Of a DNA stretch of 34,660 bases, positions 23,758 through 34,660 are shown one piece after another. The number at the start of each line of letters is the position of its first letter. Positions within the stretch are counted from its first letter, which is position 1. The notes under the pieces are model-generated. The model did not search any database and was not told the origin of the DNA. It worked only from the letters and a program-made list of their open reading frames with translations. Source of the DNA: an uncultured Eubacteriales bacterium (GTDB taxonomy: Bacteria; Bacillota; Clostridia; Christensenellales; Christensenellaceae); contig CAOKKG010000009.1 in the NCBI GenBank assembly GCA_948468985.1, positions 1 to 34,660 on the forward strand, given 5' to 3'. The translations under genes and the position numbers were made by a program.

Positions 23758-23781
23758 TATAAAAGCCGCTACACGCGGCTT
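23758..23781 (-). terminator. Intrinsic terminator ending the phage-remnant genes
   Basis: AAGCCGC (23763-23769) pairs with GCGGCTT (23775-23781) around five bases, followed on the minus strand by a TTTTAT tract. It overlaps the stop codon of the 88-residue gene. Confidence 0.75.
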
Positions 23782-24312: not shown

Positions 24313-25364
24313 TTATTTCCCCCTCTTTTTTGGCATTACTTGAATCAATCGATGATCTCGCAGACTTATGGTGACCGAACCGAAGCCTTTTTTGAAGTAT
24401 ACTTGGCGCAGATCGTCTTTCATTTCTTTGGGCTCCGAAATCGTATCCGGCTCCGTCAAAATGGCCTTGACTTTATCCACAGATGTACCTATACGAGCAT
24501 GAGGTCTCCCCTTCTCGGTTTCAGCATACTGTCCAATCACGCGATTGATGAAGTGAGAAGCATAGCTCTCAATTTTCTCACCGCCCGCCGTCGTGATTCC
24601 TACCAGCTTCGCCTCCACCTCTTCCGCGACTTTTTGATAGTACCCAAAGCCGATCAGCGGATGGATCTCTTCCTTGTTAACGCCGCGCATATATCCTTTG
24701 AAAAGCTCTTCGCGGCCATCATCCTTGATTTTTTTTAGGGCCTTGAGCGTGTCCTCCACGGAAAAGGTGCCAAGGTATGGTCCATACTTGGCATGCTGTT
24801 TACCCCAAGTGCGCCATGGCTCTTTTTTATTATTATACCACAAAAGCTGCTTGTCAGCCACAAAAACTTGTAATCTTTGCGCTCTTGGTGTCAAGTTATT
24901 TTCTCTACACCAGGCCTCGTAGTTCTTGGCCAGCGCCTCTGCGGTCTGCGCCATTTCCGCCCCATCCAGCCCCGCGGCTTTGAGGGCGGCTGACTCCAGC
25001 TTTGCGGATCGCACATCCCGCTCAAAGGCTCACTGTTTTTGGGTAAGCAGGTAGGCTTCTTCGTTTTTCTCCAGCTCCTCCGGCGTCATCTCATGATACC
25101 GAGGGAGGGAAAAGCCGTCCACGAAAGTATAGGGCGAGTGGCCGCAGTTGATGCTGAAAATGCCCGCGGACTCGCCGTAGCTCGTGTCCGTGATAGGCAC
25201 ACACTGGTAAGCGTTCCCGTCCAAGTCATATACGATGCCGGAACTCCCGTCCCAACTGCATATCCACCCGACATACGGTGCGCACAAAGGGCGCGAGATT
25301 TTGTTGGGGCCGATCTGAAAGGTCGTTACCCCATACTCGGCGGTGCGCTCCCGCTGTGTGGAAT
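24313..25364 (-). pseudogene. Broken phage minor capsid protein with nuclease-like tail
   Basis: The frame runs from the edge of the CRISPR array to a stop at 24313. The first part (about 25364-25033) carries ...PYVGWICSWDGSSG... and FSINCGHSPYTFVDG, which resemble the C-terminal half of phage minor capsid protein 2. The helical segment DVRSAKLESAALKAAGLDG also fits that family. The end (SHFINRV to VTISLRDHRLIQVMPKK) looks like a compact nuclease-type domain such as occurs at the tips of MuF-like phage toxins. An in-frame TGA at 25030-25032, where relatives often have Arg (CGA to TGA is one step), splits it, and the N-terminal part is missing. A downstream GTG at 25014 could restart translation of the tail, but no clear ribosome-binding site is seen. 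Confidence 0.75.
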
Positions 25365-25454
25365 TATCTCCCCCCGCTTACGCGGGGAAAAGCTGCAAAC
25401 CAAAATGAACGAACTTGTCGAAGCTAGGATCACCCCCGCTTACGCGGGGAAAAG

Positions 25455-26044
25455 AAACTTTGTAACCAGCTACTATGGGAAGGACGGATTTGCACGGTTT
25501 TTACAAAAAAATGTGGATGCAAATGCGATTTTGTTTGTAGATAAGAAAAAAGCTGCAAAACTTTCGGCCGAGTCAAGCACCCAATGGCTTGAGCAGCTGA
25601 AAGATTACAACTCTAATGTTATTATACGCAAAACGCATGCGAAAATCAACTTTCCACAAGAAAAATCTGTCTCTGCAAAAGGTATCGGCGAAAAGCGATA
25701 CAGCATGATTGGAGAGAAGGGCAAGGCAAACGACCAGACAAATGCATTGATCGAACCAATCGATACAGGTTTACACTGGTTTGTTGGGAATGACGGCAAA
25801 TTGCGCCTCGAAATCAGCGATGCTTCTGCTCGAATAAACACAGAGGCATTTGCAAGGGCGAAGGAAGCGTTCCAAAAGTTGCAGCGGGGAGACTTCAATG
25901 TTTTGACTTCGGACTTGGATTTGACCGTGAAAGATGTCTTTCAACACGACGCATTATTCCAGTTATACCCGGAACTCCCGGATGTGAGGGTGACCGTAAC
26001 CGACCCGGGGGATGACACACTCGGTTTGTATTCGTCGCGCGGAA
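25455..26044 (+). pseudogene. 590-bp phage coding fragment between two CRISPR repeats
   Basis: The interval is one open frame on the plus strand, about 196 codons, with no start codon and both ends exactly at repeat borders. It reads SYYGKDGFARFLQKNV near the start, then a linker, then WFVGNDGKLRLEISDASARI and LTVKDVFQHDALFQLYPELPDV. The last part resembles the domains attached to large polyvalent phage or MuF-type proteins (a DGKxRxEI segment followed by HxxLFxxYPEL). It is therefore a truncated piece of a phage gene and not an array leader or cas gene. The composition is lower in GC than the flanking cas genes. Confidence 0.8.
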
Positions 26045-26743
26045 GGGTCACCCCCGCTTACGCGGGGAAAAGTCGCGGAGCATACGCCTATCCGCAAGCT
26101 GCATGGGATCACCCCCGCTTACGCGGGGAAAAGTTGGCGCAGGGGAATTTTTCTGCAAGGTGCTAAGGATCACCCCCGCTTACGCGGGGAAAAGATTTGC
26201 AGCTGTTTGCGGACGAAGGCGCGACAGGGATCACCCCCGCTTACGCGGGGAAAAGGTAATTTTGTCGCGCCCGGCGGGTTCAATTCAAGGATCACCCCCG
26301 CTTACGCGGGGAAAAGGGCGCAGAAAACTCCCGTCCTGATTCAATGCGAGGATCACCCCCGCTTACGCGGGGAAAAGTGTATAAGCAGCAGTATGAACTT
26401 GAAAATCAGGGGATCACCCCCGCTTACGCGGGGAAAAGTGAATATGCGGGTGATAGAGACCGGTATCCGCGGGATCACCCCCGCTTACGCGGGGAAAAGC
26501 CCCCCTTTTTGCTTTCAGCATACCTCGCCGAAGGATCACCCCCGCTTACGCGGGGAAAAGGAGATTGGGAAATGCTGACGCATGACGAACTTGGGATCAC
26601 CCCCGCTTACGCGGGGAAAAGGCTGTTCACTGCTTTTGCCAGCCATGTCTTTAAGGATCACCCCCGCTTACGCGGGGAAAAGTTGCCCCAGTGCGTCCAT
26701 CGTGCACTTAAAGCAGGATCACCCCCGCTTACGCGGGGAAAAG

Positions 26744-26770
26744 AAAAAGCCGCCCCGAAGGGCGGTTTTT
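26744..26770 (-). terminator. CRISPR spacer that forms an intrinsic terminator
   Basis: Within the spacer at 26744-26776, read on the minus strand, CCGCCC pairs with GGGCGG around a UUCG tetraloop closed by C-G, followed by C and UUUUU and then the CUUUU of the next repeat. A-tract upstream pairs with the U-tract. This is the third spacer from the leader, so it could stop pre-crRNA synthesis before the remaining repeats. Confidence 0.8.
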
Positions 26771-26926
26771 GTCGTGGGATCACCCCCGCTTACGCGGGGA
26801 AAAGAAGCCTCCGACTACTCGAAGCTCGGCTCTTCCAGGATCACCCCCGCTTACGCGGGGAAAAGACCATTTTTTGCCGCCGCCCGAAATGCCGAACAGG
26901 ATCACCCCCGCTTACGCGGGGAAAAG

Positions 26927-26964
26927 ACTAAAAAAACCCCATAAAATCGGCCTTCGGCAATTTG
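26927..26964 (-). promoter_or_regulatory. Very short CRISPR leader
   Basis: Only 38 bp, AT-rich with an A-tract next to the repeat, separate the cas2-dnaQ stop codon from the first repeat. I see no convincing promoter in it. Array transcription may come from inside cas2 or be continuous with the cas operon, and any leader-anchoring sequence must lie here or in the cas2 3' end. Confidence 0.55.
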
Positions 26965-27843
26965 CTAAGCGTCCAATTCCTTTAACTTCTCAAATACGGC
27001 AAAGGTCAAAAAGCAATCCGCCAAGGCCCGGTGCGCACCGGAAACATCCATCCCAAAATGTATAGCAAGCGTCGTCAGCTTATAATCTATGATACTCTCC
27101 AAATGCTGTTTTGCCAACTGTAAAGTATCCAAATACCGATTCTTGAACTCCGGGAGGTGACATTTCCGGCAGGCCCTCTTCAAAAACGCATAGTCAAACC
27201 CGGCATTATAACAGACGATTTGCCCATCTCCCACAAACGAGAGGAACCGCCGCATGCCCTCCTCCAATTCCACGCCTTCTTCCCGCAGCATTTCCTCCCG
27301 GATTCCGGTCAATTCCGAGATTGTCGCGGGCAAATTCCCCCGGATACGCACCAGCGTTTCAAATTGCTCCACCACCTGCCGCCCCACGATGTGCAGCGCC
27401 GCAATCTCCAAAATCTCATGCTGATCCGCGCGCAATCCCGTCGTTTCGATGTCCACTACATAGTAGCCTTCCCGCTGAGCTTTGCGCGCGGCCGCCCGGT
27501 GGATCGCCTGTACCGTTTGCCGCTGCGCTGCGCGGCTTGGCGGGAGGCTGCCACCTTCCGGCCTCGCACCTTCCGCCGGGCGGAGCATCAGCTGAATGCC
27601 GTCATAGTCCACGGGAATCCAGGTCGTGTTATGCACCCGGAAATCCATCCCTTGCTCCGTATTTGCGCGGAACACCATGGTCGCCCGACCGTCACGCAGG
27701 TTTTCGCAGACCCTCTGCCAGAGTTCGTCGCGGACGCGCGCACTAACGCGTCCGACATAGACGCCGGCGTTGATCTCGACGAGCCATTTGCTGAGGTCGC
27801 CGCGCAGCTTGGGCGGGCAATTGCTAAGAGAGAGGACAATCAT
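26965..27843 (-). CDS. cas2: Cas2 fused to a DnaQ-like 3'-5' exonuclease
   Basis: Residues 1-90 are a type I-E Cas2 (MIVLSLSNCPPKLRGDLSKW, NAGVYVGRVSARVRDELW), the dimeric core of the Cas1-Cas2 integrase. After a linker rich in Arg and Ala (about 91-126) comes a DEDDh exonuclease with all catalytic residues: D131 and E133 (VDIETTG), D217 (NAGFD), H271 and D276 (HRALAD). In Streptococcus thermophilus the same fusion trims prespacers, so it should do so here. I start it at the ATG at 27843, which overlaps the cas1 stop as ATGA and matches the other junctions; an earlier ATG at 27852 is possible. It is the last cas gene before the array. Confidence 0.96.
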   Translation of the reverse strand: MIVLSLSNCPPKLRGDLSKWLVEINAGVYVGRVSARVRDELWQRVCENLRDGRATMVFRANTEQGMDFRVHNTTWIPVDYDGIQLMLRPAEGARPEGGSLPPSRAAQRQTVQAIHRAAARKAQREGYYVVDIETTGLRADQHEILEIAALHIVGRQVVEQFETLVRIRGNLPATISELTGIREEMLREEGVELEEGMRRFLSFVGDGQIVCYNAGFDYAFLKRACRKCHLPEFKNRYLDTLQLAKQHLESIIDYKLTTLAIHFGMDVSGAHRALADCFLTFAVFEKLKELDA

Positions 27844-28790
27844 GTTTCCCACTCTCTTCCGTAGGAAACGGCATTCTTCACCGTTCTGCCTTCGCCTTCC
27901 CAGAGCCGTACGACATCCGCTTCGAGCGGTTCCTCTTCCCCCTCCTCGCGCAGCAAAACCTGAATATCCCGCACCATGCGCTCCAGGATGCGCTTCTGTA
28001 CCATCTCCTCCCGCATGCGCCGCCGAATGAGCGCACCAATGTCCTCCGCCGCCTCCGCCGCGACCTCAAAGGCAACTGGAATCGTCGTCTCCGCTTTATA
28101 CAAATCGGCGATGTCATATACGAAGGAGCAGTCGTGCCCCACATGCACAAAGCCCAGCCCCGGAGAACACCCGAGCGCCGCAATCACGGCATGCGCCAGA
28201 CCATACAGGCAGGCATGCCCGGCGGAGAGCGCCTGATTCACCGCGTCTCCAGCAGAGAAGTCCTCTGGGTCATACTGCCGGCCGTTCCAGGGGATGCCCC
28301 ACCGCTGCGATTCCCGCCGGTATATCCCCCGGACGCGCGCACCCTCTCTCCCGCGGAGCTGCTGCATCGTGAGGCGCGAAACATCCTCTTCCGGAAAGCG
28401 CATTTGGTACATCTTCTTGGCGACTTGCAGATGTGCGCGCGCATTGCTCACCAGCTTTGCCTGCCGCATCAACAGCCCGGCGCGATGCGTCAGCGGCCGT
28501 CCACTGGCGTAGTAGCGGACGCCCTGTTCACCGACCCAGACGGCCGTCACTCCGCTGTCTCCAATCAGCTCCATCCCGCGGTGCGTGATGCGCGTCCCTG
28601 GCCCAAGCAGCAGTACACTGATCGAGGCCGCCGGCACATGCACCGTGCCGCGCTCTTCTGTGACGGTGATTGCGCTGTCCAGTCGGCTAATCGTGCACCG
28701 CTCCAGGTACAGGAAGGTCATGCGGTCGCGAATCAGCGGAAGCGCCTGCAAATCCGGCCGCTGCATGCCGGAAATCCCTGCCCTGCTCAT
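27840..28790 (-). CDS. cas1: Type I-E Cas1 integrase
   Basis: Cas1 is the metal-dependent integrase that inserts new spacers at the leader-side repeat. The 316-residue protein is of the type I-E subfamily (SRLDSAITVTEERG, ISVLLLGPGTRITH) and keeps the catalytic residues E149 (GREGARV), H216 (GFVHVG), D226 and D229 (YDIADLYK), each eight higher than in Escherichia coli Cas1. The ATG at 28790 overlaps the cas6e stop as ATGA. The N-terminus carries about eight extra residues relative to Escherichia coli. Confidence 0.97.
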   Translation of the reverse strand: MSRAGISGMQRPDLQALPLIRDRMTFLYLERCTISRLDSAITVTEERGTVHVPAASISVLLLGPGTRITHRGMELIGDSGVTAVWVGEQGVRYYASGRPLTHRAGLLMRQAKLVSNARAHLQVAKKMYQMRFPEEDVSRLTMQQLRGREGARVRGIYRRESQRWGIPWNGRQYDPEDFSAGDAVNQALSAGHACLYGLAHAVIAALGCSPGLGFVHVGHDCSFVYDIADLYKAETTIPVAFEVAAEAAEDIGALIRRRMREEMVQKRILERMVRDIQVLLREEGEEEPLEADVVRLWEGEGRTVKNAVSYGREWET

Positions 28791-29413
28791 ACCCCCCGGC
28801 TGCGCATGACGGTAAGCAACCCCATACCATAGGCTTTCCCCCGGCCGATCCCATTGGTCAGCGCCTCGCGGAACGCCTGCACATCCGTGACAGTCAGTAG
28901 CCCTTCATAGGTCACGCCCAGCAGCCGCACCCGGCTGCCTGCCTTTTTCGTGAAGGTATACCAGCGCATTTGTGTGCTGTACGCCGTATCCTCCGCCACC
29001 GAAAAGCCATGCGCCGCGCCCTGTTCCTGCAGCCAGCGCATCTGATGCTCCGGCGAGGTGTGCGCATGCACGCTCCCGCGCCCCTCGGCGCGGCTCTTGC
29101 TATAGGTCGGGTTTGCCCGCAGGCGGAATTGCCAACGGCTCCCCTGCTCGATCCGTTCCAGCAGCGGCGCATAGTCGCACATTTCCGGTACTTCCCCGGT
29201 ACCAAACTGCCGGACGATCCCGGTGCAGTCCGGCGCATTTTCGCTCAATAGCAGCAGATACCGCTCCCCCTGCAGCGTGTCGACCCGCCAAAGCCTGCGC
29301 CCGGTGCGCAAAGCAAACGCCTGCTCGACCGCACCGTGAAACATCGATGGATTGTATAGCGCCAGCATGGTCGGCCTTTTGGCCGTATCCAGTGCAATTC
29401 TCGATAAAATCAT
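28787..29413 (-). CDS. cas6e: Cas6e, the pre-crRNA endoribonuclease
   Basis: Cas6e (Cse3, CasE) cuts each repeat below its hairpin and stays on the crRNA 3' end. The 208-residue protein has the catalytic histidine at residue 26 (MFHGAVEQAF) in the same position as the studied Thermus enzyme, and the C-terminal glycine-rich loop GIGRGKAYGMGLLTV. The ATG at 29413 lies 4 bp after the cas5e stop, behind GAGGTGA. The repeat hairpin CCCCGC/GCGGGG in the array is its expected substrate. Confidence 0.95.
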   Translation of the reverse strand: MILSRIALDTAKRPTMLALYNPSMFHGAVEQAFALRTGRRLWRVDTLQGERYLLLLSENAPDCTGIVRQFGTGEVPEMCDYAPLLERIEQGSRWQFRLRANPTYSKSRAEGRGSVHAHTSPEHQMRWLQEQGAAHGFSVAEDTAYSTQMRWYTFTKKAGSRVRLLGVTYEGLLTVTDVQAFREALTNGIGRGKAYGMGLLTVMRSRGV

Positions 29414-29417
29414 CCGC

Positions 29418-30086
29418 TCACCTCAATTCCTGCATGGGGTCGTGTTCCTCTTCCCCTGTCCAGGCCAACCACGCCTCCCGCGCCGCACGGTAGGCATATT
29501 GCCGCTTTTCCGGGCTGTAGGACACCGGCACATCGGCGAGATAGGCGCTTCCCATCGAATCCTCCAGCAGCAGGCGCGCCTGTCCCGGCGTTTTATTCCA
29601 TCCCCAGTCCCGCACAGCAAGGTACGGCTCCTGCCGAAGCGCCTGTTCCAGGTCCATCTCCCTCAGTCCGAGGCAGACACGGCCCTCCGGTGGACAGGAC
29701 CGCCTCCCGAGAAACAGCGGAAAGGCCGGATGCGACACGGCTTCCTCGAGCTGCCGCATCCACGCTTCATCCTCTCCATAAAAGCCGACCAAAAACACCG
29801 CATCGCACAGGTAGTAGCGTTCGGTCACAAAGACCGCCTGCTTTCCTCCCTGCTGATGCACCATATGAAAGTCCCGCAGCAGCCTTCCCTCTCGGTCGAC
29901 GCGCACCCCAAAGCGCAGTGCCGTTAGTTTCCCAAGCGGTGCGTCGCGCCGCAGGCCCAGGGCCGCCGCCAACAGACCCGTCGCGCCACTCTTGGTTGGT
30001 TCGCGGTTTGTCTTGCGAATCTCAAAGCGGGAATCCACACCCCACGCCTGCATCGGCCCGGCAAAGCGCAGCAGCAGGGTACTCAT
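29418..30086 (-). CDS. cas5e: Cas5e, Cascade subunit holding the crRNA 5' handle
   Basis: The 222-residue protein starts MSTLLLRFAGPMQAWGVDSRF and continues NREPTKSGATGLLAAALGL, the hallmark Cas5 N-terminus. Cas5e (CasD) caps the 5' handle of the crRNA in Cascade. I start it at the ATG at 30086, which overlaps the cas7e stop as ATGA; a longer frame with an ATG at 30101 is less likely. Length is normal. Confidence 0.95.
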   Translation of the reverse strand: MSTLLLRFAGPMQAWGVDSRFEIRKTNREPTKSGATGLLAAALGLRRDAPLGKLTALRFGVRVDREGRLLRDFHMVHQQGGKQAVFVTERYYLCDAVFLVGFYGEDEAWMRQLEEAVSHPAFPLFLGRRSCPPEGRVCLGLREMDLEQALRQEPYLAVRDWGWNKTPGQARLLLEDSMGSAYLADVPVSYSPEKRQYAYRAAREAWLAWTGEEEHDPMQELR

Positions 30087-31144
30087 GCCTCTGCCCCCCA
30101 CTGCGCGGCCAGCGCCTGGACCGCGTCCAGCACCTGCCGCATGGGCATCGGATCCGCCAGCTCCGCCATGCCGCTGCCGATCGCAAAGGCCGCCTCCGGC
30201 TCGCCCAGATAGTCCCGATACAGCGCCTTTGCATGCCTGACAAGCGCCTTCATGGAGGGCTGCACATAGCCGTCCATGCCCGCTGTGACCGGCTTTTCAA
30301 ACGCCCCTGCGAGGTTGAGCGGCTGATCGCGGCGGATCGCCACATAGACCGCATCGGGCAGCGTGTTGTTGGCATAGGAATTGCGCTTGCCCGTGGGCAT
30401 GCTGCACAAAAATGCCTGCAGGAATACGCGCACCGCCTCCGGCGTGCGGCCGTCCAGATGCGCCGCGAGCTCGCCGATATTGACCGTCGCATAGCGATAC
30501 AGCGTCGAAGAGTTGTATTCCGCCGTGTCCATATGCGCTGCACCCATGCTACCCTCCGGCGCGCAGTCGTCCAATGCGGTGAAAAAGTCGAACTCGTTCT
30601 GCACCGCATGCGTCGAAATCGCATGCGCCACCTGCGCCGCCGCGTCGTAATTCAAGCTCGGATCCTCCGCGGCCATGCGCCCAAACAGCGCGATATCCAC
30701 CGCCGGATTCTCCCGCATGGCCTTTTGGCACTCCTTTTTATCCAGCTTGCCGCCCTCCGCGCCGAGGACGACCTCCGCCAGCGCCGCGAGCTGTCCCGGG
30801 CTGACAAAAAACAGCGCGTCTCTCTTATCTCCCTCCTTCACAGAGACGCCCGCCGCCGCAAGGCCGTCCTTGGCCAGCTTTTCGGCGTCTGCCTCCGGCG
30901 CGCGCGCCCGGATTTCCTCCACGAGGAGGGCGTGCAGCAGCTTTGTGCGCTTGCCCACCTCTTCCGCCGGAAGCTCTTGGCGGAAATAGTCGCGCATTGC
31001 CTTTTTCCACGCCTGCGAAGAGACGCGCGCCCGGGTCACCCCGCCATAGAAAGCCGTCTTGGGGCTGCCGGTGTCGTCGCGGTTGACGCAGCTCGGCGGG
31101 ACCGTCTGCAGCACATGAATGTCCATATAGAGAGAATTACGCAT
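30083..31144 (-). CDS. cas7e: Cas7e, Cascade backbone subunit
   Basis: Cas7e (Cse4, CasC) forms the six-unit backbone that holds the crRNA spacer. The 353-residue protein starts MRNSLYMDIHVLQTVPPSCVNRDDTGSPKTAFYGG and continues RARVSSQAWKKAMRDYF, typical of the family. I start it at the ATG at 31144 behind AAAGGATGG; it overlaps the cse2 end by 8 bp. The longer upstream frame is not family-like. Confidence 0.96.
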   Translation of the reverse strand: MRNSLYMDIHVLQTVPPSCVNRDDTGSPKTAFYGGVTRARVSSQAWKKAMRDYFRQELPAEEVGKRTKLLHALLVEEIRARAPEADAEKLAKDGLAAAGVSVKEGDKRDALFFVSPGQLAALAEVVLGAEGGKLDKKECQKAMRENPAVDIALFGRMAAEDPSLNYDAAAQVAHAISTHAVQNEFDFFTALDDCAPEGSMGAAHMDTAEYNSSTLYRYATVNIGELAAHLDGRTPEAVRVFLQAFLCSMPTGKRNSYANNTLPDAVYVAIRRDQPLNLAGAFEKPVTAGMDGYVQPSMKALVRHAKALYRDYLGEPEAAFAIGSGMAELADPMPMRQVLDAVQALAAQWGAEA

Positions 31145-31745
31145 AAGTTTGTTCCATCCTTTCTTCTTTCGTCTGTCTAATTTGCCGGTAAAAATCCTGT
31201 CCCCATGCGAGGCGCACACGCGCCGCACCGTCCGGAAACTGGAAGTTATATAGATCCGCCGCCAATTGCGCATAGTCGAGCGGAATCTTGCCCCCGCGCA
31301 GCAGCCGCACAAGCCCGCGCAAGTGCTGCGCCGCCTCGGCGATGCCGTTTGCCGTCGCCGCCATCTGCAGCCGCCGGGCGATGCGTTCCTCTTCCTCCTC
31401 GACTGTTACAAGCTGCCTGGCCGCAGCCCCGAGCCGCCTGCCCGGCCGATGCATACAGCCCTCCGGCCCGGTTGCCTCGCTGCCCTGCTGATGCAGCGCA
31501 TACAGCGTGAGCGCCGTATAGACCGCCCATTCCTCCCGCGTCGGCTCGCCGGAGACACTCAAGAATTCCTCCGGCAAGTCGCCGAACAGGATCCCCCAAA
31601 GCTCCGGCAGGTCGCCTGGCTTCTTGCCGACGCCGCGCCGCAGCATAGCCAGCTGTGCGCGCACATAGCTCCTGTCGGAAGCATTCTGATACCTCTCCAA
31701 CCGGCGATCCATGTACGCCTTTAGTTCTCTGCTTCGATTTGCCAT
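31137..31745 (-). CDS. cse2: Cse2 (Cas11e), Cascade small subunit
   Basis: Cse2 (CasB) forms the belly dimer of type I-E Cascade and stabilises the R-loop. The 202-residue helical protein has the family pattern AYMDRRLERYQNASDRSYVRAQLAMLRRGVGKKPGDLPELW, a middle LYALHQQG segment and a terminal DLYNFQFPDGAARVRLAWGQDFYR. I start it at the ATG at 31745, with a strong GGGAGGAC site 6-7 bases upstream; an upstream GTG overlaps that site. It follows the cse1 stop by 13 bp. Confidence 0.94.
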   Translation of the reverse strand: MANRSRELKAYMDRRLERYQNASDRSYVRAQLAMLRRGVGKKPGDLPELWGILFGDLPEEFLSVSGEPTREEWAVYTALTLYALHQQGSEATGPEGCMHRPGRRLGAAARQLVTVEEEEERIARRLQMAATANGIAEAAQHLRGLVRLLRGGKIPLDYAQLAADLYNFQFPDGAARVRLAWGQDFYRQIRQTKEERMEQTYA

Positions 31746-31758
31746 CTCTGTCCTCCCT

Positions 31759-33336
31759 TCATCCAAGCAGCTGCTTTATCTGATACTGAAACTGATTATA
31801 CGCTTCCGGCAGGCTATAGCGCCGGCCGTCCTGTTCCCGCCCGAGGAAGGCGGTGGGGAGCGCCTCGCCAATCAGTTCCTCCCCCAGCGCCAGCGCGATG
31901 CGCCGTTCTGCCTCTCGCCACTCCTCCCGCCAGACGGCCTTTCCTTCATAGTCCGCCTGTGGGTCGATCTTTTCCAGGAAACGCCGGAACGGAATGTCGA
32001 TCCGGTAATAGAACTGCATCTTTGCAAAGTCGGCGAGCGCGCCGTTTGCATGACCGTTTGCGCTATCCAGATTCCTCCCCAGTTGTGCGACGATCCCTGC
32101 GGCCCGATCCGCCAACGCGACCTCCTCCTGTACCCGGCGGTTCCATTCCCGTCCGATTTCTGCCAGCAGCGCCGTGTGGAACTGAATCGAGTCGCTGAAA
32201 ATATCTTTTATAAAGAAGTCTTTGTCGCCGTATTTCACCCCTGCAATGCGCAGACGCACAAGCAGGTTTCGCTGCAGCATCCCGTTGTATTCCAAAAGTT
32301 CCCGCCAGCGCACAACGCCCGGCTTTCCCTTCGGCGCCTCCGCCGATGCGATGGACGCGAATTCCCGCCAAATCTGTTTCTGCGGATCGTGTCGGCGGGG
32401 CTGCCAATAGTCGGCCGCCTTGCCCTTTGCGTCGATATGCGCCCAGACCGTCATCTGCTCGGAAAAGGCGTTCTTCCTGTCAAAGAAATCCCCGCCCAGC
32501 AGGGTGACACCCGTCACCCCGCGCGCATCGCGCTGGAGCAGTAGTCGCCGGGATTGCAGCGTCAAAAGCTGCATTTGGCTTTGCGGCAAGGCAATCTCCC
32601 GGCGCTCCTGTTCCGGCGGTGCGTCCAGTTCCCAAACGGGGCAGTTTTCGTCCCAGAGTTCTTCATTGTCATCCACCATCACAAAGTTCAGCATCAGCGT
32701 CTCAAATAGATTATCGCCTTCCGCCCAGACGAGCCCCAATTTCCCGAGCCAGCCCGCCCCCGGAGAGGGCAACCCTTTCTGCTTTGGCTTCGCTGAAGTG
32801 TCATCATAGCCGTTTAGGTGCAGCAGCCATCGGGCCGCCTCCGCATAGGTGAGGACCTCCTTAGCTTCCCCCGCTCTTCCCGCAAAAAGCCGGTACTTAT
32901 TCCCACTTTCCGCGATTACGCCGTTCAGCTTTGCCGCCTTAAAATAGGTGCCGACCTCCGCCGCCTTCACCTGCCAAAACGGCCGCTCCGGGTGAAACAG
33001 GTAAAACCGCTCCCGATAGGCCTCCAGATAGGCGCGGATGGGCTGTTCCGGGAAGTGCCCGCCCTCCCAAAGCGTCTGCCAACGCCGCAAAGCATCGTCC
33101 GCATCCGCAAGCGGCTCGGCACCGCCCGCCTCCCTCGTGCGGGCAAACACAGCGTACAGCACCGCCAAAAGCATGCGGAGCATTGCCGCATCCTGCGTAG
33201 GCAATTCCCCCGCCAGCGCACGAAAGGTATGCGCCCGCACAAGCGCGTCCACGAGAGAGACCTCCTCCACCGTGCAATCCTGCCGCAGCACCCGGATCCA
33301 CGGTTCCTCCAGCAAACAAAATTCCTTTTCCTTCAT
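31759..33336 (-). CDS. cse1: Cse1 (Cas8e), Cascade large subunit
   Basis: Cse1 (CasA) recognises the PAM, opens target DNA and recruits Cas3. The 525-residue protein starts MKEKEFCLLEEPWIRVLRQD, has RPFWQV, and a long C-terminal helical bundle ending near AYNQFQYQIKQLLG. The length is close to Escherichia coli CasA (502). Its ATG at 33336 overlaps the cas3 stop as ATGA. The PAM preference cannot be read from the sequence. Confidence 0.95.
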   Translation of the reverse strand: MKEKEFCLLEEPWIRVLRQDCTVEEVSLVDALVRAHTFRALAGELPTQDAAMLRMLLAVLYAVFARTREAGGAEPLADADDALRRWQTLWEGGHFPEQPIRAYLEAYRERFYLFHPERPFWQVKAAEVGTYFKAAKLNGVIAESGNKYRLFAGRAGEAKEVLTYAEAARWLLHLNGYDDTSAKPKQKGLPSPGAGWLGKLGLVWAEGDNLFETLMLNFVMVDDNEELWDENCPVWELDAPPEQERREIALPQSQMQLLTLQSRRLLLQRDARGVTGVTLLGGDFFDRKNAFSEQMTVWAHIDAKGKAADYWQPRRHDPQKQIWREFASIASAEAPKGKPGVVRWRELLEYNGMLQRNLLVRLRIAGVKYGDKDFFIKDIFSDSIQFHTALLAEIGREWNRRVQEEVALADRAAGIVAQLGRNLDSANGHANGALADFAKMQFYYRIDIPFRRFLEKIDPQADYEGKAVWREEWREAERRIALALGEELIGEALPTAFLGREQDGRRYSLPEAYNQFQYQIKQLLG

Positions 33337-34660
33337 CGTTCCTCCTTTTGGTATTGCAGACCGTCTTCCCCGTCATAGCGGAGGCGCTGCCCCAAGAGCG
33401 ACGCCTCCCCCGCCGGATCAAGCAGCAAAAACAGTTCCTGCCCCACCCGGGGCGAGCGTGCCCATTCGCGAAGCACCCCCTGTCGGACGGCCTCCAGCTG
33501 CTTGATCGTTTCTTCCATTCGATAAGGCAGACTGAAGAAATAGGGAAGGCGCAGGCTTTGCCGCAGGATGACCTCCGCCTCTTCCCGCGAAGGCGGGGTA
33601 TCCGGCGCGATGCAGAGCGCCTCTCCCGTCAGGGTGTGCAGCATGCCATCCTCTCCGTATTGAAGCAGCAGCACCTCGATCGACGCCGCCCCGTCGCGGA
33701 CGCTGGCCTCCGCCTGCGCCTCACTTCCCGCCGAAAAATCCCGATCCAACAGGCCGTGAATATAGCGCTTTCTGCTCCCCGACTCACGCGGCGCGTTGGG
33801 CAGGCACATGTTCCGCGCCATAGACCCTCGCCGTTCCAGGTCTGCCTCATACGCTGCCCGCAGGGCGTCCAGCCCCAGACGACCGTCATTTCCCGCGGCG
33901 TATACCTCCTGCACTAGGCGCGAGATGTCCCCGGGCAGGTCGATCTTCTCCGGCAATAAGCACCGAGTCTTTCGCAGCAGATATTCACCGTAGATGGCCT
34001 GTGCGCCGCCTTCCAGCTCCTCTCCCTCTGCCCCCAGCACAAGACAGGCCGCCCGTTTAACGCCCGCCGGGCGCTCGCGCCCCGGGTGCCGGTGCAATCG
34101 TCCCAGGCGCTGCAAAAGCAAGTCCATCGGGCACAGATCGGTAACCAGCACATCAAAGTCGATGTCCAAAGACTGCTCCAGAACCTGCGTCCCCACGACC
34201 AGGCAGCCGTTTCGTTCAGCTGGGGTGGAATGCTTGCCGAGCTTTTGCTTCAGCCGCTCCTCCTTGCGGAGGCGGTCCGGCATTGCAAATTGCGCATGGT
34301 TCAAAATCACTTCCGCCCCCGGAAAGGCCCGGCGCAGATCGGCGGCGACCTGCTGCGCCCGCCGCACGGTATTGAGGATCACGCCCGCGCAGCCGCCTGC
34401 CCGCAGACGCTCCCGCAGGAAGGGGACAACCCCCGCATCCTCCCCGCGGAGGATCTCCACCTCGGTGGGTGGGGCGGAAAGCGCTACCGTCTCTGTATGC
34501 ACAGCCGCCCCGTCCGTCCAGGTGAGCAATGGGTAGGCGCGTTCTTCCTCCAGCGCGGCGCCGTCCGCGGGCGCTTCGCACAGGTATGCCTGCACCAGTT
34601 CCCGCCGGCGCTTGCCCGGCAGCGTCGCGGAAAGCAGGATGACTGGCGTCTGGTATGCCC
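33333..34660 (-). CDS. cas3: Cas3 helicase-nuclease, C-terminal part only
   Basis: Cas3 is recruited by Cascade to unwind and shred target DNA. The visible 441 residues, cut at the window edge, begin AYQTPVILLSATLP, which contains helicase motif III (SAT, 34623-34631). They continue through the second RecA domain with GTQVLEQSLDIDFDVLVTDL and motif VI DLLLQRLGRLHRH, and a C-terminal domain. The N-terminal HD nuclease and motifs I-II lie outside the window, so completeness is not known. A GTG at 34595 is not the true start, since the frame is open and family-like beyond it. It is presumably the first gene of the cas operon, whose promoter is also outside. Confidence 0.94.
   Translation of the reverse strand, partial: AYQTPVILLSATLPGKRRRELVQAYLCEAPADGAALEEERAYPLLTWTDGAAVHTETVALSAPPTEVEILRGEDAGVVPFLRERLRAGGCAGVILNTVRRAQQVAADLRRAFPGAEVILNHAQFAMPDRLRKEERLKQKLGKHSTPAERNGCLVVGTQVLEQSLDIDFDVLVTDLCPMDLLLQRLGRLHRHPGRERPAGVKRAACLVLGAEGEELEGGAQAIYGEYLLRKTRCLLPEKIDLPGDISRLVQEVYAAGNDGRLGLDALRAAYEADLERRGSMARNMCLPNAPRESGSRKRYIHGLLDRDFSAGSEAQAEASVRDGAASIEVLLLQYGEDGMLHTLTGEALCIAPDTPPSREEAEVILRQSLRLPYFFSLPYRMEETIKQLEAVRQGVLREWARSPRVGQELFLLLDPAGEASLLGQRLRYDGEDGLQYQKEER

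Follow-up and report, generated by a model that had tools for sequence, protein, structure and literature searches.

In a type I-E CRISPR array one spacer position was found to be occupied by 590 bp of foreign DNA carrying an internal fragment of a mobile-element gene. As an observation the interval is real: its preliminary description as a repeat-free stretch of exactly 590 bp between two near-identical repeats was confirmed, both repeats being full 28-mers with one substitution in the second. The interval is best explained as an over-long spacer, namely a long prespacer that Cas1-Cas2 would have joined at its PAM-defined end while the other end was left untrimmed. This explanation is given about an even chance of being correct, and confidence in it is only moderate because the two genomes concerned, that of the window and that of a second array, are both metagenome assemblies and the source element was not seen.

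The 590-bp interval and its locus

The window, the whole stretch of 34,660 bp that was analysed, is one complete contig of a metagenome-assembled genome (1.47 Mb, 92% complete, 91 contigs). It carries a type I-E CRISPR-Cas locus with a Cas2-DnaQ fusion, complete on the minus strand apart from cas3, which is cut by the contig end (Table 1). The consensus repeat of the array on the minus strand is CTTTTCCCCGCGTAAGCGGGGGTGATCC. Read on this strand from the leader adjoining cas2, the array holds the 590-bp interval as its second-oldest unit, second from the trailer end. The remaining 15 intervals measure 33 bp (14 of them) or 34 bp (one), as had been described. No convincing protospacers were found for the window's own spacers. 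In a comparison with relatives, six same-genus genomes gave no match to the repeat or to cas1; the locus therefore looks like a recent gain or the survivor of repeated loss.

Table 1 Features of the window and of the G396 locus. Window positions count from its first letter; those marked L183 count within region 115000-134900 of contig WRMW01000003.1.
Feature	Positions	Strand	Remarks
Phage minor capsid protein 2 (PF06152) pseudogene	24313-25363	-	5'-truncated at terminal repeat; in-frame TGA at 25027-25029
Terminal repeat	25365-25392	-	22 nt intact, leader-distal end lost
Type I-E CRISPR array	25371-26926	-	17 repeats, leader on right
Leader-distal repeat of 590-bp interval	25427-25454	-	Full 28-mer, consensus
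590-bp interval in place of one spacer	25455-26044		Leader-proximal end 26044, leader-distal end 25455
Last 34 nt of interval	25455-25488	-	Preceded by AA (25489-25490), first base T: AAY PAM
Internal fragment of MuF/large polyvalent protein gene	25456-26043	+	C-terminal part of MuF_C followed by LPD23-like part; lacks start and stop
Leader-proximal repeat of 590-bp interval	26045-26072	-	Full 28-mer; one substitution, GGGTC for GGATC, outside hairpin
Leader region	26927-26964	-	Short (~38 bp), between array and cas2 stop; assigned from sequence
cas2-dnaQ, Cas2e fused to DEDDh exonuclease	26965-27852	-	Motifs DIET, NAGFD, HRALAD intact
cas1 (I-E)	27840-28790	-	
cas6e, cas5, cas7, cse2, cas8e	28787-33336	-	
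cas3, C-terminal part	33333-34595	-	Contig ends at 34660
83% homologue of G396 372-bp insert	L183:4457-4765		Just past decayed repeat, further down G396 locus
G396 array	L183:5961-14129		77 recognisable repeats
G396 1771-bp interval	L183:9559-11329		~430-bp piece plus IS, inverted ends of at least 23 bp, 8-bp target duplication GCAATCAG
G396 245-bp interval	L183:13885-14129		Three tandem copies of ~37-bp unit plus terminator-like hairpin
G396 1279-bp interval			Truncated integrase, HicA and HicB
G396 1313-bp interval			Small gene and AbiEii gene cut at border
G396 372- and 400-bp intervals			Small complete genes

At its leader-distal end the array finishes in a repeat without its final bases, directly followed by the remnant of the capsid protein 2 gene. 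Beyond this remnant no decayed repeat scoring above shuffled sequences was found. The remnant could be what erosion has left of an older long unit, or else the scar of an unrelated prophage. Two small ORFs follow the pseudogene, down to position 23780.

Within the 590 bp no repeat-like stretch was detected, the best having 16 of 28 matches, which is the level of shuffles. A run of ordinary units with lost or degenerate repeats was rejected, since 590 does not equal 33+61n and no repeats are hidden inside. Terminal inverted repeats, direct repeats, a target duplication and a transposase were looked for in the interval and none was found; a transposon or MITE was accordingly rejected, and the later insertion suggested at first is, as a transposon-like event, left without support. 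Campbell-type phage integration at a spacer followed by deletion was also rejected, as the identical 33 nt that it predicts at both ends are absent.

One stop-free frame of 196 codons runs through the interval on the plus strand, and a full-length open frame occurred in none of 2000 shuffles. The single plus-strand frame without a start codon thus stands as first reported; as part of a longer ORF (25039-26166) it continues through both flanking repeats. Hence the borders are set by homology and not by stops. The resemblance to MuF or polyvalent proteins was also correct. Positions 70-102 of the MuF_C profile match the left end of the interval with E values of 0.004-0.02 and 15-18 bits, against a Pfam cut-off of 27.6, a score below the cut-off because the interval carries a fragment of the domain; the relatives score 60-82 bits. 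The closest of these are large multi-domain MuF_C proteins of same-order genomes with 33-48% identity over the first 65-110 residues, several of them also having ART, ArdC or metallopeptidase domains. They belong to the polyvalent proteins that phages and conjugative elements encode; for the phage-type gene of the interval, the term phage gene used earlier should read phage or conjugative-element gene. A protein of Pseudomonas phage F116 matches residues 103-189 of the 196. Altogether homology begins at residue 1, 1 bp off the leader-distal repeat, and extends to about 30 bp short of the leader-proximal one; being nearly border to border, it indicates that the fragment is colinear mobile-element DNA almost throughout the interval. 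The gene type is that of the large polyvalent/MuF proteins of phages and conjugative elements (MuF_C, then an LPD23-like region), but only an internal piece is present here, which has neither start nor stop and is not a functional gene.

The GC content of the interval, 45% compared with 58% in housekeeping genes and 62% in cas genes, marks the DNA as foreign, and its sequence occurs once in the genome. The interval has complete repeats on both sides in an array with a leader and cas1-cas2, is of foreign origin, and starts on the leader side with T, as a PAM-derived first base would, a sign that is weak for one interval alone. Since its length departs from the ruler length of 33 ± 1 bp, the unit is called spacer-like and not an ordinary spacer.

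Long intervals in a second array and the PAM-side base

About 85,000 genomes were scanned for the I-E repeat class, and intervals were measured in the 80 loci listed by means of a mismatch-tolerant repeat search. Among the survey matches listed, 987 of 1,069 intervals were 33 bp and 44 were 34 bp. Nearly all other long gaps were N-runs, array ends or, by look, two separate neighbouring arrays. Among these matches one array, from another species and designated G396, is a genuine parallel to the window; it lies on a 214-kb contig (WRMW01000003.1) of a termite-gut clostridial metagenome-assembled genome. Besides 68 normal spacers (64 of 33 bp, four of 34 bp), it contains at least seven long intervals, of 245, 607, 1771, 372, 400, 1279 and 1313 bp, each between full repeats. 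These repeats are perfect except for two substitutions in the leader-distal repeat of the 1313-bp interval, and the borders of the long intervals cut mobile-element genes. The insertion sequence with its target duplication sits within the 1771-bp interval, and the long unit thus predates it. An 83% homologue of the 372-bp insert lies further down the locus and is probably an older unit of like kind, possibly captured from a related element.

Both arrays are of type I-E and one repeat class, with long pieces of mobile elements enclosed by repeats that are full and mostly perfect, and with a pyrimidine on the leader side. They differ in that G396 has at least seven such units, up to 1.3 kb without the insertion sequence, and a stand-alone Cas2e; a DnaQ fusion is therefore not required for long intervals.

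The leader-side first base is C or T in all 15 normal spacers of the window, in all 68 of G396 and in eight of eight long intervals (P = 0.003 by their own base composition). The same rule holds in a sister I-E array (record MT835722), whose spacers match Faecalibacterium phages; four of its phage protospacers read AA/C or AA/T, with an AA PAM directly before the first base. The Megasphaera Cas1-Cas2/DEDDh integrase recognises a TT/AA PAM (PMC10284694). When the 372-bp insert is aligned with its 83% homologue, AA stands directly before the homologue's counterpart of the first insert base; this reading depends on a 17-nt extension with identity at only 9 of 17 positions, a level reached by 1% of positions in that stretch. 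The leader-side end of the long units thus seems to be made as in ordinary spacers. Two records filed as 'Bacteriophage sp.', MT835722.1 and MT838183.1, hold ordinary I-E arrays with spacers matching Faecalibacterium phages and gokushoviruses and are probably bacterial contigs.

Origin of the long intervals

A contiguous phage gene with the sequence of the interval was not recovered: no DNA-level relative of the 590 bp was found in phage, viral-contig and genome collections, and nearly 800 genome searches across the order and class (some genomes twice) gave only protein relatives of 33-48% identity. Sources of the G396 long intervals were likewise absent from phages, plasmids and viral contigs. 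Among the matches listed, no spacer hit to the 590 bp or to the capsid remnant, as self-targeting would give, rose above chance. The array repeat, whose presence in a phage genome would mark insertion of a phage-borne mini-array, was absent from 2.9 million viral contigs.

According to the over-long-spacer explanation, DNA of a phage or conjugative element would have been captured beside an AA PAM as a piece far longer than 33 bp. Its PAM-side end would have been processed by Cas1-Cas2/DnaQ and joined at the leader-repeat junction as usual, and the non-PAM end would have been attached at the opposite edge of the repeat without prior cutting to ruler length; repair would then have duplicated the repeat, as at any acquisition, and 14 normal spacers would have been added afterwards. 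Both joins by Cas1-Cas2, and the failure of trimming, are steps that we infer.

This sequence of events is favoured by the full repeats on both sides without transposon marks and by the independent G396 array, in which seven long intervals obey the PAM-side base rule. In vitro, Cas1-Cas2 of S. pyogenes without its trimming partner performs full-site insertion of untrimmed substrates, those substrates being short (PMC8034620). The DnaQ domain of the window keeps its DEDDh residues, and these intact motifs together with 14 later normal spacers imply a rare failure and not a lost trimmer. Of the initial proposal that Cas1-Cas2-DnaQ had failed in trimming, the over-long prespacer is retained as best supported, mainly by G396; the tie to DnaQ lacks specificity. 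Against the over-long spacer it weighs that the source element was missing from the collections searched, that a pyrimidine at the first position has an even chance when only the window is considered, and that the known ruler should disfavour kilobase full-site integration. In addition, the long intervals of G396 cluster toward its old end (P = 0.001), which also fits change after acquisition; the clustering suits either a gradual build-up of changes as units age or a past period of leaky trimming, and the run of four consecutive long units favours the latter.

The strongest alternative, although rather unlikely, is recombination between spacers and protospacers. Here a single gene would have supplied two adjacent spacers, lying about 556 bp from each other on one strand. 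In homologous or gap repair that drew on the invading element, the middle repeat would have given way to the element DNA that separates the two in the gene, leaving the outer repeats to bound one long interval. In a variant, half-integration at one end would be combined with annealing of the other to a spacer already in the array. Recombination should leave a PAM at a distance of one spacer length from the distal border; in the window AAA/T is found exactly 34 nt from it, a possible trace of an older spacer. In G396 an AAY lies at this distance in two of seven intervals (at 34 nt in the 1279-bp and 33 nt in the 1313-bp interval). An AAY at 33 or 34 nt in at least three of eight long intervals has P = 0.011, estimated at ~0.07 when the window, which suggested the test, is left out. 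The position of the long intervals toward the old end of G396 also agrees with recombination. However, five of the eight have no PAM at that distance, so that it explains at most three, and the usual spacer of the window is 33 nt and not 34. Neighbouring spacers from the same gene would moreover be needed many times over, including for the four consecutive G396 units, and the two-spacer state left no trace. Recombination and long acquisition may coexist.

Insertion of foreign DNA into an existing 33-bp spacer, by end-joining at a break or as a transposon or MITE, would leave spacer remnants at both ends and keep the pyrimidine-first rule, and a genuine insertion sequence with target duplication is present in one G396 interval. 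That element, however, is located within a long interval and not in a 33-bp spacer, and the 590 bp have neither inverted ends nor a target duplication. As homology runs from residue 1 to about residue 189 of 196, there is little room for an unrelated left-over spacer; 33 unrelated nucleotides do not fit, except possibly in the last 20-30 nt. This origin is considered improbable. An assembly artefact, in which phage reads were joined into the array via the 28-bp repeat, deserves no greater credence in spite of the genome being a metagenome assembly in 91 contigs: it requires another molecule in which the fragment is flanked by the repeat at either end, while no viral contig has the repeat, the genome has no second copy of the fragment, and similar intervals occur in a 214-kb contig from another project. 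Finally, recombination of the host array with a phage or plasmid bearing its own repeat or mini-array, which for a phage with a repeat was also suggested at the outset, is very improbable: virus-borne mini-arrays are known (PMC6858448) and a phage remnant abuts the array end, but the viral contigs are devoid of the repeat and a phage would still need repeats flanking the gene fragment on both sides.

Relation to known systems and significance

Ordinary type I-E spacers, as produced by the Megasphaera trimmer-integrase (PMC10284694), share with the 590-bp unit the Cas2-DnaQ architecture, the AA PAM logic, the PAM-side base, the foreign origin and the full repeats on both sides; they differ in length, 33 bp against 590 bp, ruler-trimming being evidently absent here at one end. 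The S. pyogenes reaction (PMC8034620) is alike in that substrates are inserted at unprocessed length without a trimming partner; it is, in contrast, of type II-A, in vitro and with short substrates, whereas natural arrays here hold hundreds to more than 1,000 bp. Arrays interrupted by insertion sequences also show a long gap between units, but the 590 bp lack a transposase, inverted ends and a target duplication. No report of gene-sized spacers was found in literature searches confined to an open-access library, an absence that is weak evidence.

The prevailing view is that the Cas1-Cas2 ruler sets a constant spacer length. Gene-sized units would be easily missed, because adaptation assays generally rely on short amplicons and array finders limit the gap between repeats and thereby split such arrays. 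CRISPRDetect, for instance, has a default maximum extension of 125 nt (PMC4869251).

The G396 array suggests that the enzyme writing CRISPR memory sometimes inserts gene-sized fragments. Tentatively, and at somewhat less than an even chance, natural type I-E Cas1-Cas2 may occasionally perform PAM-guided full-site integration of hundreds to more than 1,000 bp, such that arrays store genes of mobile elements (toxin-antitoxin, AbiE-like), in some lineages as a sizeable part of the old array. The systems of the window and of G396 supply concrete proteins for a direct test. If gene-sized units with a correct PAM-side end do arise in this way, trimming and integration would be separable in nature, and arrays could capture genes.
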